Assembly: GCA_016342455.1 (NCBI GenBank)
Contig: JAEIOE010000017.1
Coordinates: 1 to 39,746 of the forward strand
From: Mycoplasmatota bacterium
GTDB lineage: Bacteria > Bacillota_I > Bacilli_A > Izemoplasmatales > Hujiaoplasmataceae
Direction of reading: 5' to 3'
DNA: 39,746 nucleotides
In this document: in pieces, positions 35,689 to 39,746 of the stretch
Numbering within the stretch: position 1 is the first letter of the stretch
Layout of the letters: each line of letters opens with the position of its first letter
The notes under the pieces: model-generated
Seen by the model: only the letters and a program-made list of their open reading frames with translations
What the model was told of the DNA's origin: nothing
Database searches by the model: none
Position numbers and translations under genes: made by a program

Positions 35689-35916
35689 TTATAATAATTT
35701 CTTTATTTCTTGTATTGTTAAAACTCTTCCTTTAGCGACTACTAATTCATCAATCACTAAAGCTGGTGTTTGCATTACATTATACTTTGCGATTTCTTGA
35801 AAATCAGTTACTTTAGTAACTTCTACATCTAATTTTAATTCATCCGCAGCTAATACAACATTTGCATACAACTTCTTACAATTCTTACATCCTGAGCCTA
35901 AAATCTTAATTTGCAT
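35689..35916 (-). CDS. Small redox-active disulfide (thioredoxin-fold) protein
   Basis: A 75-residue protein of the redox-active disulfide protein 2/TM0996 family. The CxxC site is in GSGCKNCKKLY (Cys10, Cys13) and the cis-proline segment is MQTPALVID. Such proteins commonly accompany ArsR regulators and ArsP/DUF318 permeases in metalloid or thiol-stress operons. It follows arsR by 36 bases and has an AGGAGA site. No permease is present, so its partner may lie elsewhere. Confidence 0.88.
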   Translation of the reverse strand: MQIKILGSGCKNCKKLYANVVLAADELKLDVEVTKVTDFQEIAKYNVMQTPALVIDELVVAKGRVLTIQEIKKLL

Positions 35917-35952
35917 ATTTTTCTCCTATAAGTGTTTTTTATTAATGAATAT

Positions 35953-36240
35953 CTATTTGCAGTTACATTCCTCTAGGTTTTGTAATTTCATTCCTTCTAA
36001 AAATGCAATCATTTTATCTATTGCTAAATTATCTATGTGGTACTTATTCCAAGTTCCAACTTTTTCAGTTGTGGCTAAACCTGAGTCTTTAATCATTTTC
36101 ATATGATAAGCCAAGGTAGGTTGAGATACACCTATTTTATTTTCAAACTCACAAGTACAGCATCTTCCTTTTGATAAATACTTGAATACTTCTACTCTTG
36201 TTTCATCAGAAAATACTTTAAACATTTTTGTTAAATTCAT
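35953..36240 (-). CDS. arsR: ArsR/SmtB-family metalloregulator
   Basis: A 95-residue winged-helix repressor. The recognition region is VSQPTLAYHMKMIKDSGL. Cysteines Cys27, Cys28 and Cys30 (RCCTCEF) sit where ArsR binds As(III)/Sb(III) (ELCVCD in E. coli), and two more end the protein (CNCK), suggesting a thiol-ligated metal(loid) sensor. ATG 36240 is used because AAGGAGG lies five bases upstream. Its promoter overlaps a perfect inverted repeat (36253-36272), so autorepression is likely. It heads a two-gene operon with the disulfide protein. Confidence 0.9.
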   Translation of the reverse strand: MNLTKMFKVFSDETRVEVFKYLSKGRCCTCEFENKIGVSQPTLAYHMKMIKDSGLATTEKVGTWNKYHIDNLAIDKMIAFLEGMKLQNLEECNCK

Positions 36241-36252
36241 AGTTGCCTCCTT

Positions 36253-36299
36253 ATATAGATACACATCTATATTATATCACAAGAGAAATTACTTACCAA
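36253..36299 (-). promoter_or_regulatory. arsR promoter and operator
   Basis: On the minus strand TTGGTA (36294-36299), a 17-base spacer and extended -10 TGATATAAT (TATAAT 36271-36276). The inverted repeat ATATAGAT-ACAC-ATCTATAT (36253-36272) touches the -10 and covers the predicted transcription start, as expected for an ArsR-type operator. Confidence 0.85.
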
Positions 36300-36369: not shown

Positions 36370-38292
36370 TTAATGTAGTAGATCTTCTGGCTTGTGTAGG
36401 TAATAACCTTGTTGGATTAAACACCCTAGATCTCGAAGTTTTTCACTTTGTTCCTTTGTTTCTACACCTTCAGCAATCATTTCTCTATCTGTCATATCGG
36501 TGATTTTTCTAATCATTTTAATAACTTCTTGATTGCTAACATTAGATATATTTCTAACAAAGTGTGCATCTAATTTTATAATATCAAAATTAACTTTTTC
36601 TAATATTCCAAGTGATGAATACTCTATTCCAAAATCATCTAGCGCAATTAAATAACCATGACTTTTATACAAGTTAATTCTTGAGATACATAAATCTAAT
36701 TTATTTATGAAGGTTCCTTCTGAGATTTCTATATAGATTTCACTCGGTTCCAAACCAACTTTTTTAACAACATCATCAAAATATTCAAAGAACTTAATGT
36801 TCATCAGTGTATTCGGTGCTAAATTAATAGTTAATTTTGCATCATTCGTTCCGACTGTGTCTTTTAATAGTTTGAAGCTTTCTAAAGACTTTTTCACCAT
36901 ATATCTGTCTAGTCGATCTAATTGATTTGTTTCTTTAGCTATTTTAAAGAAGTCGAGAGGTGATATATAGCCTAAGTCTTCATCGTGCCATCGAGATAAT
37001 TGTTCAAAAACATAAGTTTGCTTTGTAATACAATTAATAGCTTTTTGAAAGAATACTTGAATTATTTCGTCATCTAAAGCTATTTTTAGTTTATTAGCAA
37101 GTTCTAGATTATATTTGATACTCTCAAGCATTCCCTTTTTATATCTTTGCATATCAGTAGTATTTTTTGTAATAGAATCTTTTAACGCAATACTAGACAA
37201 TGCTACTATTTCTTCTATAGACTCACTGTCCTCCGGATAAATAGCATAGCCTGCTCTTTTATCTAATTGGAGATCTAACTCACCAATTTGATAAGAACTT
37301 TGTAGGAAAGCTTCTATCTTTGCTTTATATGAGTCGATAACTGCTTTATTTACTTGTCCATTAAGGAATACAAGGACGAATTCGCATTCGTTATATCTAG
37401 CTACTAATGAATTTTCGTTAGCTAATCCTTTTAACTCATTCACCACTTCGTTCAATAGTTTATCAACTACAACACGTCCATAATAATTAACGATTTGAGT
37501 ATAATGCATAATTTCTATAAAAAATGCTACTGCAGATTCTGAATTATTCATCTCTTTCAGTTTTTGGGTTAATCCATATTGATTCATAATGCCTGTTAAA
37601 AAATCTTGTTTCTGATAGAAATCTTTTACTACTTTTGATTTAGCGAAAGTTGTTACATCATTTCCAGTAGCGATAATTGACTCCACATTACCCGAAGTGT
37701 CTAAATTAGCATGATAGTTTATCAAAACTAGTTTTTCTTCTTCAAGACATTGACATTTTACAATGTTATATGATGTGTATTCTCTAAGAACTTGTTTAAA
37801 CCAATCCGTATCATTCACTTCTAATTGATCATAAATTTTAAAAATTGATTCACCTAGGACATCAATTTTTGTAGAATTAAAAAATGTAAGTGCGTTTTCA
37901 TTTGCGTACATAATATTCCCTTGTTTGTCCATCATGAAAATCAATTCTGTATTTTCTTCTATCATACTTTTTTGATTTGAATTTAATTTTGTATGTTTTG
38001 ATTCTTTAAAAGAATATCTTTGGCTAATTTTTTGAAGATTAGTATTATCTAACTTCATTTCGATATAAGTTATCGTTTTTGAAACTTGTGCTGTCATTGT
38101 ATTATATTCTAGTGATTTTTGATGATGGGACATTATCAAAAATAAAATGGCTAATACAAATATAAAAAAGGCAACTAATTTAAGGCTGTCAAGATGCAGA
38201 TAAGAATAGAAGATTTTAGCAACTAGATCATCTATACTCATATTCAATTTAAATATATTATTTATCACTGACAATAATAATTGAATTTGCAT
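36370..38292 (-). CDS. Membrane PAS-GGDEF(degenerate)-EAL cyclic-di-GMP protein
   Basis: A 640-residue protein: one clear transmembrane helix at about 37-54, a PAS-like domain at about 110-215 (ELIFMMDKQGNIMYANENAL), a GGDEF-like domain at 220-375 and an EAL domain at 395-636. The GGDEF motif is replaced by NECEF (301-305), so cyclase activity is unlikely. The EAL domain keeps the expected catalytic residues: Glu430 (EQL in place of EAL), Asn490, Glu522, Asp552-Asp553 (DDFG), Lys573, Glu608 (AEGVE) and Gln628. It should therefore be a c-di-GMP phosphodiesterase or sensor. Its promoter has an operator shared with the peptide/regulator pair next door (38372-38391), suggesting control by that system. 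Single gene with its own terminator. Confidence 0.9.
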   Translation of the reverse strand: MQIQLLLSVINNIFKLNMSIDDLVAKIFYSYLHLDSLKLVAFFIFVLAILFLIMSHHQKSLEYNTMTAQVSKTITYIEMKLDNTNLQKISQRYSFKESKHTKLNSNQKSMIEENTELIFMMDKQGNIMYANENALTFFNSTKIDVLGESIFKIYDQLEVNDTDWFKQVLREYTSYNIVKCQCLEEEKLVLINYHANLDTSGNVESIIATGNDVTTFAKSKVVKDFYQKQDFLTGIMNQYGLTQKLKEMNNSESAVAFFIEIMHYTQIVNYYGRVVVDKLLNEVVNELKGLANENSLVARYNECEFVLVFLNGQVNKAVIDSYKAKIEAFLQSSYQIGELDLQLDKRAGYAIYPEDSESIEEIVALSSIALKDSITKNTTDMQRYKKGMLESIKYNLELANKLKIALDDEIIQVFFQKAINCITKQTYVFEQLSRWHDEDLGYISPLDFFKIAKETNQLDRLDRYMVKKSLESFKLLKDTVGTNDAKLTINLAPNTLMNIKFFEYFDDVVKKVGLEPSEIYIEISEGTFINKLDLCISRINLYKSHGYLIALDDFGIEYSSLGILEKVNFDIIKLDAHFVRNISNVSNQEVIKMIRKITDMTDREMIAEGVETKEQSEKLRDLGCLIQQGYYLHKPEDLLH

Positions 38293-38317: not shown

Positions 38318-38334
38318 ACGACATAATTTGTCGT
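38318..38334. promoter_or_regulatory. Inverted repeat ACGACA-N5-TGTCGT in the GGDEF/EAL leader
   Basis: A perfect 6-5-6 inverted repeat between the predicted transcription start and the GGDEF/EAL start codon. Its half-site ACGACA is shared with the operators at 38372-38391 and 38427-38441. Confidence 0.65.
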
Positions 38335-38344
38335 TCTTGTATAT

Positions 38345-38391
38345 ATTATACTATATTGTATATATACATTTACAGTGCACATGTGTCGTAT
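38345..38391 (-). promoter_or_regulatory. GGDEF/EAL promoter with regulator site (copy B)
   Basis: A consensus -10, TATAAT (38345-38350, minus strand), has no recognisable -35. Instead a 20-base site at 38372-38391 reads, toward the gene, ATACGACACATGTGCACTGT, ending 21 bases before the -10. It matches the site between regulator and peptide genes at 16 of 20 positions, and all four differences are transitions. The position is typical of an activator site. Confidence 0.7.
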
Positions 38392-38426: not shown

Positions 38427-38441
38427 CGACACATGATGTCG
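38427..38441. promoter_or_regulatory. Inverted repeat CGACA-N5-TGTCG upstream of the GGDEF/EAL promoter
   Basis: CGACA-CATGA-TGTCG, perfect in both arms. On the + strand the left part CGACACATG equals the left half of the copy-B operator. It lies about 95 bases upstream of the predicted transcription start. Confidence 0.6.
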
Positions 38442-38534: not shown

Positions 38535-39446
38535 CTATTTATCTATCAAACTTAAGACATACTTTTTAAAATTAATCGAAAAATCCTTTTCAATAAGTGC
38601 AGTAAATTTTTCTATCTTTGCGTGGTTTCCTTCCATACTTAAGACGTTAAAACATCTTAAAAGTGAATCATCAAATTCTTCTTTTTGACCAAGCGCATAA
38701 TGTGCTAAAGACTTATAGTAAAAAAAGTATTCCCACAGATAATATTGCTTATGTAGAATTCCTCTTTCAATACCTAATTCACAATAGTAGATTACTCTAG
38801 GGTAGTCTCTTTTAATACCAAAGGTCTTAGCAATTCTCATTAGGATTAAAGTATAAATATATTCCGAATCTCCTGCCATGATGCTTTCAGTGCTCTCAAA
38901 CAGCGAATTTAGCTTTGAGAGCAACATTTCTTGTTGCCTGCCGGTAAACACACTCAGCAAGAAACTAAGTATTAAGACCTCAACGTCGGTATAATACTGC
39001 TGTTTCAATATTTTAGGATAATCTATGAGCTCAGACACCTTTTGGATAACTTCTTCTAGCGTTAAATCTCTAGAATAATACCTAAAAACAATGTTAGCAT
39101 GATCGTAGTATCTTCTACCTTCTTCAGAGATAATTAGGTCACTATCAAGTTCTCTTTTTAAGTTAATAGCGTTCTTATAATCGTTATTTGCAACGGCATT
39201 ATAAAACTGATTAATTTTTGTATACTGTGTACCCTTTTCGCGCTCGAATTCTGCCAATAATTTTTTGGTGCTAATTCCTAGTTTTTCAGCGAACTGATCT
39301 ATCTTCTCATAGGGGATAACACTATCCCCATTTTTGTATCTTTGATATTGACGAATAGAAACAATTCCAGAAACGAATTCTTCCTGTGATACATTTCGAC
39401 CAAAACGTATTTTTTCTAAATAGTTGCTAAGCTCCATCGAATTCAT
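38535..39446 (-). CDS. Rgg/PlcR-like (RRNPP-type) peptide-responsive transcriptional regulator
   Basis: A roughly 303-residue protein with an N-terminal helix-turn-helix (about residues 6-60: SQEEFVSG, then SIRQYQRYKNGDS, IPYEKIDQFAEKLGIS). About 240 residues of helical, TPR-like repeats follow (YYDHANIVFRYYSRDL, YPRVIYYCELGIERG, YYKSLAHYALGQKEEF). Size and layout are those of Rgg, PlcR and PrgX regulators that bind imported signalling peptides. ATG 39446 is preferred over ATG 39470: AAGGGA (39454-39459) lies seven bases before it, and the upstream ATG falls within the operator 39462-39481. It is divergent from the repeat-peptide gene starting 81 bases away, the usual regulator-pheromone arrangement. 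Peptide binding is inferred from architecture and context. Confidence 0.83.
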   Translation of the reverse strand: MNSMELSNYLEKIRFGRNVSQEEFVSGIVSIRQYQRYKNGDSVIPYEKIDQFAEKLGISTKKLLAEFEREKGTQYTKINQFYNAVANNDYKNAINLKRELDSDLIISEEGRRYYDHANIVFRYYSRDLTLEEVIQKVSELIDYPKILKQQYYTDVEVLILSFLLSVFTGRQQEMLLSKLNSLFESTESIMAGDSEYIYTLILMRIAKTFGIKRDYPRVIYYCELGIERGILHKQYYLWEYFFYYKSLAHYALGQKEEFDDSLLRCFNVLSMEGNHAKIEKFTALIEKDFSINFKKYVLSLIDK

Positions 39447-39461
39447 AATATTTTCCCTTAA

Positions 39462-39481
39462 ATGCGACATATATGCGCTGT
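39462..39481. promoter_or_regulatory. Operator between regulator and repeat-peptide gene (copy A)
   Basis: Reads ATGCGACATATATGCGCTGT on the + strand, with a palindromic core CATATATG flanked by GCG and CGC. It matches the GGDEF/EAL upstream site (copy B) at 16 of 20 bases, in the same orientation relative to the controlled gene. Candidate -10 boxes for the peptide gene follow at 39495-39500 (TTTAAT) or 39502-39507 (TACCAT); neither is strong, as expected for an activated promoter. Confidence 0.7.
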
Positions 39482-39527
39482 ATATTTTTTTTCATTTAAT
39501 GTACCATAGAGGGCGAGGTGAAAGAAA

Positions 39528-39746
39528 ATGAAAAAATTGATTTTATTAGTAGTATTAGTATTTGGATTAGGATTTGTTGGTATTAACGTGTGTGATTTAA
39601 ATGTGAATAGTAATAATATAAAGTTGCTAGATTTTGAAGACTCTGGAGAACCAGAATATATCTTAACATTAGATTTTGAAGACTCTGGAGAACCAGAATA
39701 TATCTTAACATTAGATTTTGAAGACTCTGGAGAACCAGAATATATC
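39528..39746 (+). CDS. Secreted repeat-peptide precursor, candidate pheromone (C-terminus outside window)
   Basis: An open frame of at least 73 codons, still open at the window end. It starts at ATG 39528 with GAGGTG (39515-39520) seven bases upstream. Residues 1-3 (MKK) and a hydrophobic stretch 4-19 form a Sec-type signal or membrane leader. Cys22 follows (INVC), but the residue before it is Val, so a lipoprotein site is doubtful. Residues 34 onward are tandem 14-residue units LDFEDSGEPEYILT, two complete and a third cut by the window. The unit is acidic with a hydrophobic end (YILTL). Divergence from an RRNPP-type regulator, export leader and repeated short units fit a multi-copy signalling peptide precursor. 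A repetitive surface protein is the alternative. Confidence 0.72.
   Translation, partial: MKKLILLVVLVFGLGFVGINVCDLNVNSNNIKLLDFEDSGEPEYILTLDFEDSGEPEYILTLDFEDSGEPEYI
39627..39746 (+). repeat. 42-base in-frame tandem repeat
   Basis: Unit 1 is 39627-39668, unit 2 is 39669-39710 and unit 3 is 39711-39746 (36 bases, cut by the window). All copies are base-identical except the first base (c in unit 1, t in the others). Identity at synonymous positions points to recent duplication or ongoing homogenisation. Confidence 0.97.

Follow-up and report, generated by a model that had tools for sequence, protein, structure and literature searches.

The right end of the window, by which we mean the whole stretch analysed here (the entire contig C98, 39,746 bases, of a 2.43-Mb assembly in 108 contigs), likely encodes an RRNPP-like quorum-sensing circuit in which a multi-copy pheromone would activate its own precursor gene and that of an adjacent c-di-GMP phosphodiesterase. 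Comparison with related genomes shows the pairing of regulator and precursor genes, the conservation of the pheromone unit, a predicted receptor fold, predicted operators with their spacing, and a phosphodiesterase partner with intact catalytic residues. The initial annotation had proposed a peptide quorum-sensing pair with a repeated signal; the architecture of this proposal is supported by the comparison, but the signalling itself we still infer.

The precursor ORF (39528..39746, + strand) is preceded by the ribosome-binding site GAGGTG (39515..39520, +). It begins with a predicted export leader, MKKLILLVVLVFGLGFVGINVCDLNVNSNNIKL (39528..39626, +), whose hydrophobic N-terminus, with a lysine plus a hydrophobic stretch, was recognised by reading the sequence and has counterparts in relatives, and it continues with tandem 14-aa units, LDFEDSGEPEYILT (39627-39668, 39669-39710 and 39711-39746, +, the third truncated by the contig end). 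Tandem Repeats Finder reports a 42-bp period with 2.8 copies and a 100% match at 39628-39746, at the right end of the contig. The small ORF with a leader and 14-residue units, divergent from the regulator, that had been described at the outset is confirmed in the window sequence. Since the contig breaks inside the repeat, the ORF is open at 39746. The repeat unit was not found in the other contigs of the window's genome, the sole three copies being those of this contig, so the copy number here is bounded only as at least three. The assemblies of L066, L084 and L093 likewise stop inside an array of this kind.

Complete homologous ORFs are present in three relatives of the same genus (L063, L064 and L065), whose regulators share 76-81% identity with that of the window. 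These ORFs have 129-183 aa and 6-9 copies of the unit (nine, six and eight, respectively), and they finish with a final variant copy, DF[ED]DSGEPEFVP, about 9 further aa and a stop. A run-on into a surface protein had been named earlier as a possible outcome; in the complete relatives the ORF closes as a small repeat precursor. Across the order, 3-10 units are found at this position, with L093 having at least 12. The units are near-identical acidic copies with the consensus φ-[DG]-F-[DE]-D-x-x-x-P-E-[YF]-V, and the order-wide core is φ-[DG]-[FY]-[DEHN]-[DN]-x(2-4)-[PE]-[ED]-[YFWLV]-[VI]. The precursors of distant members have 41-55 aa and end, at the very C-terminus, in a single unit (L070, VDFENSGEPEWVTR, as well as L080, L081, L082, L097, L098, L099 and L102). 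Thus, the array can be regarded as the amplified form of an ordinary single-signal precursor. At one locus (L079, G066:C106), three tandem genes carry one signal copy each, and these copies, VDFDDIDLPEVVVV, VDFDDIDLPEVVVV and IDFDDIEHPEVVK, are nearly alike; this is amplification via gene duplication, not internal repeats. The leaders of the precursors examined are, as read from the sequence, hydrophobic and nearly always contain K/R, and Sec export is putative. No convincing match to the precursor was found in Pfam, NCBIfam or PHROGs.

RRNPP candidates have been defined by a precursor length of 10-100 aa (PMC10075063). The single-copy precursors fall inside this range and many of the multi-copy ones, with 101-212 aa, outside it, so that this definition would miss many arrays found here. 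We treat the limit as a size filter and not as biology, because published repeated precursors are atypically long, too (PMC9765709).

The regulator gene (38535..39470, - strand) encodes 311 aa with an HTH at about residues 18-73 and a helical TPR-like domain; the conserved start codon probably corresponds to Met-9 (near 39446). In Pfam, HTH_19 was matched above the cut-off (E 3.4e-7) and RapH_N weakly; TPR/RNPP_C matches are rare. An AF2 model built from a 25-sequence alignment is all helical (mean pLDDT 89.5, pTM 0.82), and its best full-length PDB folds in Foldseek were PlcR-PapR-DNA, ComR, PrgX and Rgg2/3, with E 6e-6 to 7e-4 and moderate TM-scores of 0.37-0.56. A profile search against PDB sequences gave Rgg2 as best match (E 2.6e-6) along with Rgg3/MutR, a match running through the HTH; PlcR reached only E 0.85, so the likeness to PlcR is at the level of the fold only. 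With its length, N-terminal HTH and all-helical model, the protein agrees with what is expected of an RRNPP receptor (250-500 aa, N-terminal HTH, TPR superhelix). The identification as an Rgg/PlcR-like regulator was borne out by the predicted fold, and we read the protein, from the model, as a member of a separate RRNPP-like subfamily.

The pairing of the two genes was examined with a strict test, which requires that a gene have next to it a small secreted ORF, divergently oriented and equipped with a ribosome-binding site. Of 30 regulators, 26 passed it, in each case with the core motif, compared with three of 261 other genes of the same loci, none with the core motif (Fisher p 1e-29). No recognisable precursor was found beside three of the 30 regulator homologs (L088, L090 and L091). 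The expectation that relatives keep regulator and precursor adjacent thus holds for most of them, but not for these three, and some of the others have a single-copy precursor only. With their single signal copy, such relatives resemble ordinary RRNPP precursors. Most of the genomes compared are metagenome assemblies.

Within one ORF, the differences between units are almost all synonymous (pooled pS 0.42, pN 0.019, ratio 0.046), showing that the peptide is conserved and not the DNA; for the two complete units of the window, pN is 0.000 and pS 0.130. Between species the unit varies. In the clade with EAL-domain partners (EAL clade, see below), regulators have a mean identity of 71% in the HTH and 48% in the TPR part, and the peptide distances correlate with those of the TPR part (Mantel r 0.57, p 1e-4) and with those of the HTH (r 0.38). 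The covariation of the repeat peptide with the TPR domain that had been suggested as a check is therefore present; it would be the pattern expected of a receptor-ligand pair, to which shared ancestry, only partly removed here, also contributes.

A 20-bp site near TACGACATATCCGCGCTGTT was found throughout the EAL clade in the gap between regulator and precursor, with an inverted second copy before the gene downstream of the regulator. In the window, the predicted operator 1, TGCGACATATATGCGCTGTA (39463..39482, +), reads toward the precursor and is followed after 19 nt by a candidate -10 box of the precursor promoter, TACCAT (39502..39507, +; 4/6 to TATAAT). The predicted operator 2, TACGACACATGTGCACTGTA (38371..38390, -), reads toward the GGDEF-EAL gene and has a TATAAT -10 box at a distance of 20 nt (38345..38350, -). 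Two palindromic pairs of operator half-sites were also seen: CGACACATGATGTCG (38427..38441), which has similar counterparts at this position in L063, L064 and L065, and CGACATAATTTGTCG (38319..38333), just ahead of the GGDEF-EAL gene. Scanning 90 genomes of this order while allowing two mismatches at most yielded 44 sites in 24 of them; a reversed control pattern gave none in the same set. Perfect sites of the genus form occur in the window's genome only at 38372 and 39463, both in this locus. A -10 hexamer (at least 5/6 to TATAAT) is located exactly 19 nt past the operator at 34 of 50 sites, with at most six sites for any other offset. Families f12 and f16 share the 19-nt spacing, whose counterpart in the HD-GYP clade described below is 24 nt. 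No consensus -35 hexamer was seen at the correct distance in the operator promoters.

Elsewhere in the window's genome, one-mismatch and two-mismatch sites lie before a DUF6577 protein (C35:49092) and a 111-aa protein (C87:35112). Proteins of about 110 aa with an operator and a TATAAT-like box occur in three species of the genus (C87:35112, L132 on G003:C81 and L133 on G002:C64); from its promoter, this protein is a probable third member of the regulon, and it has no convincing match in Pfam, NCBIfam or PHROGs. The operator was also observed before SLATT_4 membrane proteins, a C39-peptidase ABC exporter and the DUF6577 protein (L137, L138, L158 and C35:49092).

The predicted target behind operator 2 is a PAS-GGDEF-EAL membrane protein (36370..38292, -; EAL E 1.2e-53) with intact EAL catalytic residues and a degenerate GGDEF motif (RYNECEF). 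Across the EAL clade, operator 2 is followed by a gene for an EAL or GGDEF-EAL protein, usually with an N-terminal membrane anchor; the catalytic ExLxR, N, ExxE, DDFG, K and EGVE are intact in 17 of 17 proteins, that of the window included, and GGDEF is mostly degenerate. A second, separate multi-copy clade (L076, L077 and L092-L095) has an HD-GYP (HD_5) protein at the partner position, with the HD and HHExxDGxGYP motifs intact in all six and an operator of the same kind in front. In a quick regulator tree with several weak branches, EAL and HD-GYP partners appear as two separate gains, and multi-copy precursors fall into three separate clades, with four changes. The presence of one operator before two unrelated c-di-GMP phosphodiesterases suggests that the system serves to lower c-di-GMP. 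The genome of the window encodes 25 GGDEF domains, so c-di-GMP is presumably used. The shared operator and the adjacent phosphodiesterase gene had both been missed in the initial annotation, and they are stronger evidence than that on which it was built.

From these elements the following circuit can be proposed. The leader would direct the precursor out of the cell, where cleavage would release multiple copies of a single acidic peptide (about 13 residues, around DFEDSGEPEYIL). After re-import, probably via an oligopeptide permease, the peptide would bind to the regulator's TPR domain. In this loaded form the regulator may occupy the 20-bp operator, immediately ahead of the -10 box, and activate both the precursor promoter, giving positive feedback, and the phosphodiesterase promoter. 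With the phosphodiesterase activated at high density, c-di-GMP would fall. In L063 and L065 an Opp operon and a DUF3899 gene follow directly past the 3' end of the precursor. An Opp operon (OppF 70% to that of L063) is also present on contig C78 of the window's genome; this contig stops 98 bp past DUF3899 and probably represents the flank that the window contig lacks. This link between Opp and the precursor, seen only in the window's genus, is suggestive, and import by this route is putative.

In other relatives a different gene is located behind the precursor and in the same direction. It encodes a conserved protein of about 90 aa with the consensus ELxGIIxTIxTYTRNPFMxGYTKxL and was observed at 13 loci (L069, L071, L073-L075, L078, L081-L083, L097-L099 and L102), and also on contig C39 of the window's genome. 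The protein has no convincing match in Pfam, NCBIfam or PHROGs. It is possibly a third component of the system that is missing in the window's genus.

Both activators and repressors exist among RRNPP regulators, and the regulator might instead repress the precursor and phosphodiesterase promoters until it is relieved by the peptide, a polarity like that of PrgX and Rgg3. The operator overlaps the -35 region in nearly all promoters, so that a bound protein could block the polymerase. However, an activator fits better with the constant 19-nt spacing to the -10 box; the sign of control is our reading of this promoter layout, and activation is favoured because a consensus -35 is absent. Repression is an unlikely alternative.

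A bacteriocin-like role is considerably less probable. The repeat ORF would then encode a secreted antimicrobial array and the ~90-aa gene its immunity protein, with the regulator merely controlling them, and the conservation of that gene behind the precursor and a C39-peptidase exporter with an operator in one genome (L158) would suit such a system. However, the units are identical within an ORF, yet co-vary with the TPR domain between genomes; the short single-copy forms carry the unit at the very C-terminus, which is the RRNPP layout; and no ~90-aa gene stands behind the complete precursors of L063 and L065, which belong to the window's genus. Surface proteins are also known that combine tandem repeats with an export leader, and the array could in principle be a structural or adhesive secreted protein without a signalling role whose position next to the regulator is incidental. 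We rejected a surface protein because the complete ORFs end; these ORFs hold little beyond leader and units and have no anchor, and the pairing is conserved across several families, with single-copy homologs among them, which makes such a role hardly credible. A pheromone that activates through the regulator thus remains the reading that we prefer.

The proposed pheromone circuit can be compared with known systems. Rgg/SHP and MutR-type Rgg of Lactobacillales have the HTH and the helical peptide-binding domain in common with it, but the short hydrophobic precursor exported by PptAB that marks the Rgg/SHP subfamily is not found here: SHP precursors are very short, whereas our precursor is multi-copy and acidic and its leader looks Sec-type. 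PlcR of the Bacillus cereus group, the best Foldseek match, is an activator for a Sec-exported peptide, in which the proposed circuit would resemble it. However, PapR is encoded immediately downstream of PlcR and not divergently, the precursors here have up to at least 12 copies and no detectable sequence relation to PapR, and the clear sequence relation to PlcR that characterises receptors of the PlcR/PapR subfamily was not found. The PlcR box also differs from the operator described here. The yeast alpha-factor precursor, too, has tandem identical pheromones behind a leader, but this is an analogy only, without homology, and recognisable KR/Ste13-type processing sites are not present here. 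NprR/NprX, Rap/Phr and AimR/AimP likewise have several copies of one pheromone per precursor, up to six (PMC9765709); their receptors are different, their precursors lie downstream and their repeats are occasional, whereas repeats prevail in three clades here.

Multi-copy RRNPP precursors as such are already known: up to six identical copies have been reported for AimR, NprR, Rap and PlcR systems, including three of 15 PlcR precursors of outlier length, and none among 658 Rgg and 394 ComR precursors or in PrgX (PMC9765709). RRNPP quorum sensing has been described from Bacillales, Lactobacillales and their phages, and Tenericutes, Mollicutes and Acholeplasma are unmentioned in three papers on the subject (PMC9765709, PMC10075063 and PMC12700828). 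The open-licence literature yielded no report that joins RRNPP with Mollicutes, which is weak evidence, and none of RRNPP in this lineage, of this copy number or of a promoter-level link to c-di-GMP; in the passages on these subjects that were examined, no link from RRNPP to a c-di-GMP phosphodiesterase was found. In B. thuringiensis, c-di-GMP was reported to raise plcR expression, which is the opposite direction.

Relatives of the regulator occur in 50 of the 90 order genomes, in 60 of the 395 genomes sampled from the class and in 32 of the 392 sampled from the phylum, these last being confined to five families. Family f12 has multi-copy arrays alongside single-copy members, and palindromic operators. 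An origin from mobile elements was considered and rejected, as no relatives of the regulator were found in IMG/VR or in phage and plasmid collections. More distant paralogs of the regulator, of which a genome has several, are likewise placed opposite tiny secreted ORFs, whose C-terminal peptides differ considerably (contigs C39 and C52 of the window's genome, and L107-L122); these are likely further peptide-signalling pairs.

Elsewhere in the window, two further features were recognised by eye. A large cluster for purine/xanthine catabolism (6748-28493, -) contains two molybdenum-hydroxylase sets and YgeW/YgeX/YgeY/SsnA/YgfK-like proteins. An ArsR-like regulator and a thioredoxin-like small protein are located at 35689-36264 (-); in L066, the same two genes border a membrane protein of 335 aa that comes immediately after the EAL gene. 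A scan of the window found no Rfam families and no tRNAs.

Taken together, we lean towards an RRNPP subfamily, so far undescribed, in the mycoplasma-related Bacilli. Here one operator would wire cell density directly to c-di-GMP breakdown, non-homologous phosphodiesterases (EAL and HD-GYP) would have been adopted twice for the same task, and the pheromone would have been amplified three times independently into arrays like that of alpha-factor, with up to at least 12 copies kept identical by selection. The processing of multi-copy precursors has been termed a mystery (PMC9765709), and the arrays are natural material for this question, since they allow the borders of the units and the C-terminal copy to be compared in many species. 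That EAL is replaced by the unrelated HD-GYP under the same operator argues that the lowering of c-di-GMP is the selected output. If this is true, RRNPP signalling would be tied to c-di-GMP directly at the level of transcription, peptide quorum sensing would extend to the mycoplasma-related branch of the Bacilli, and receptor, peptide code and operator could be read across several families.
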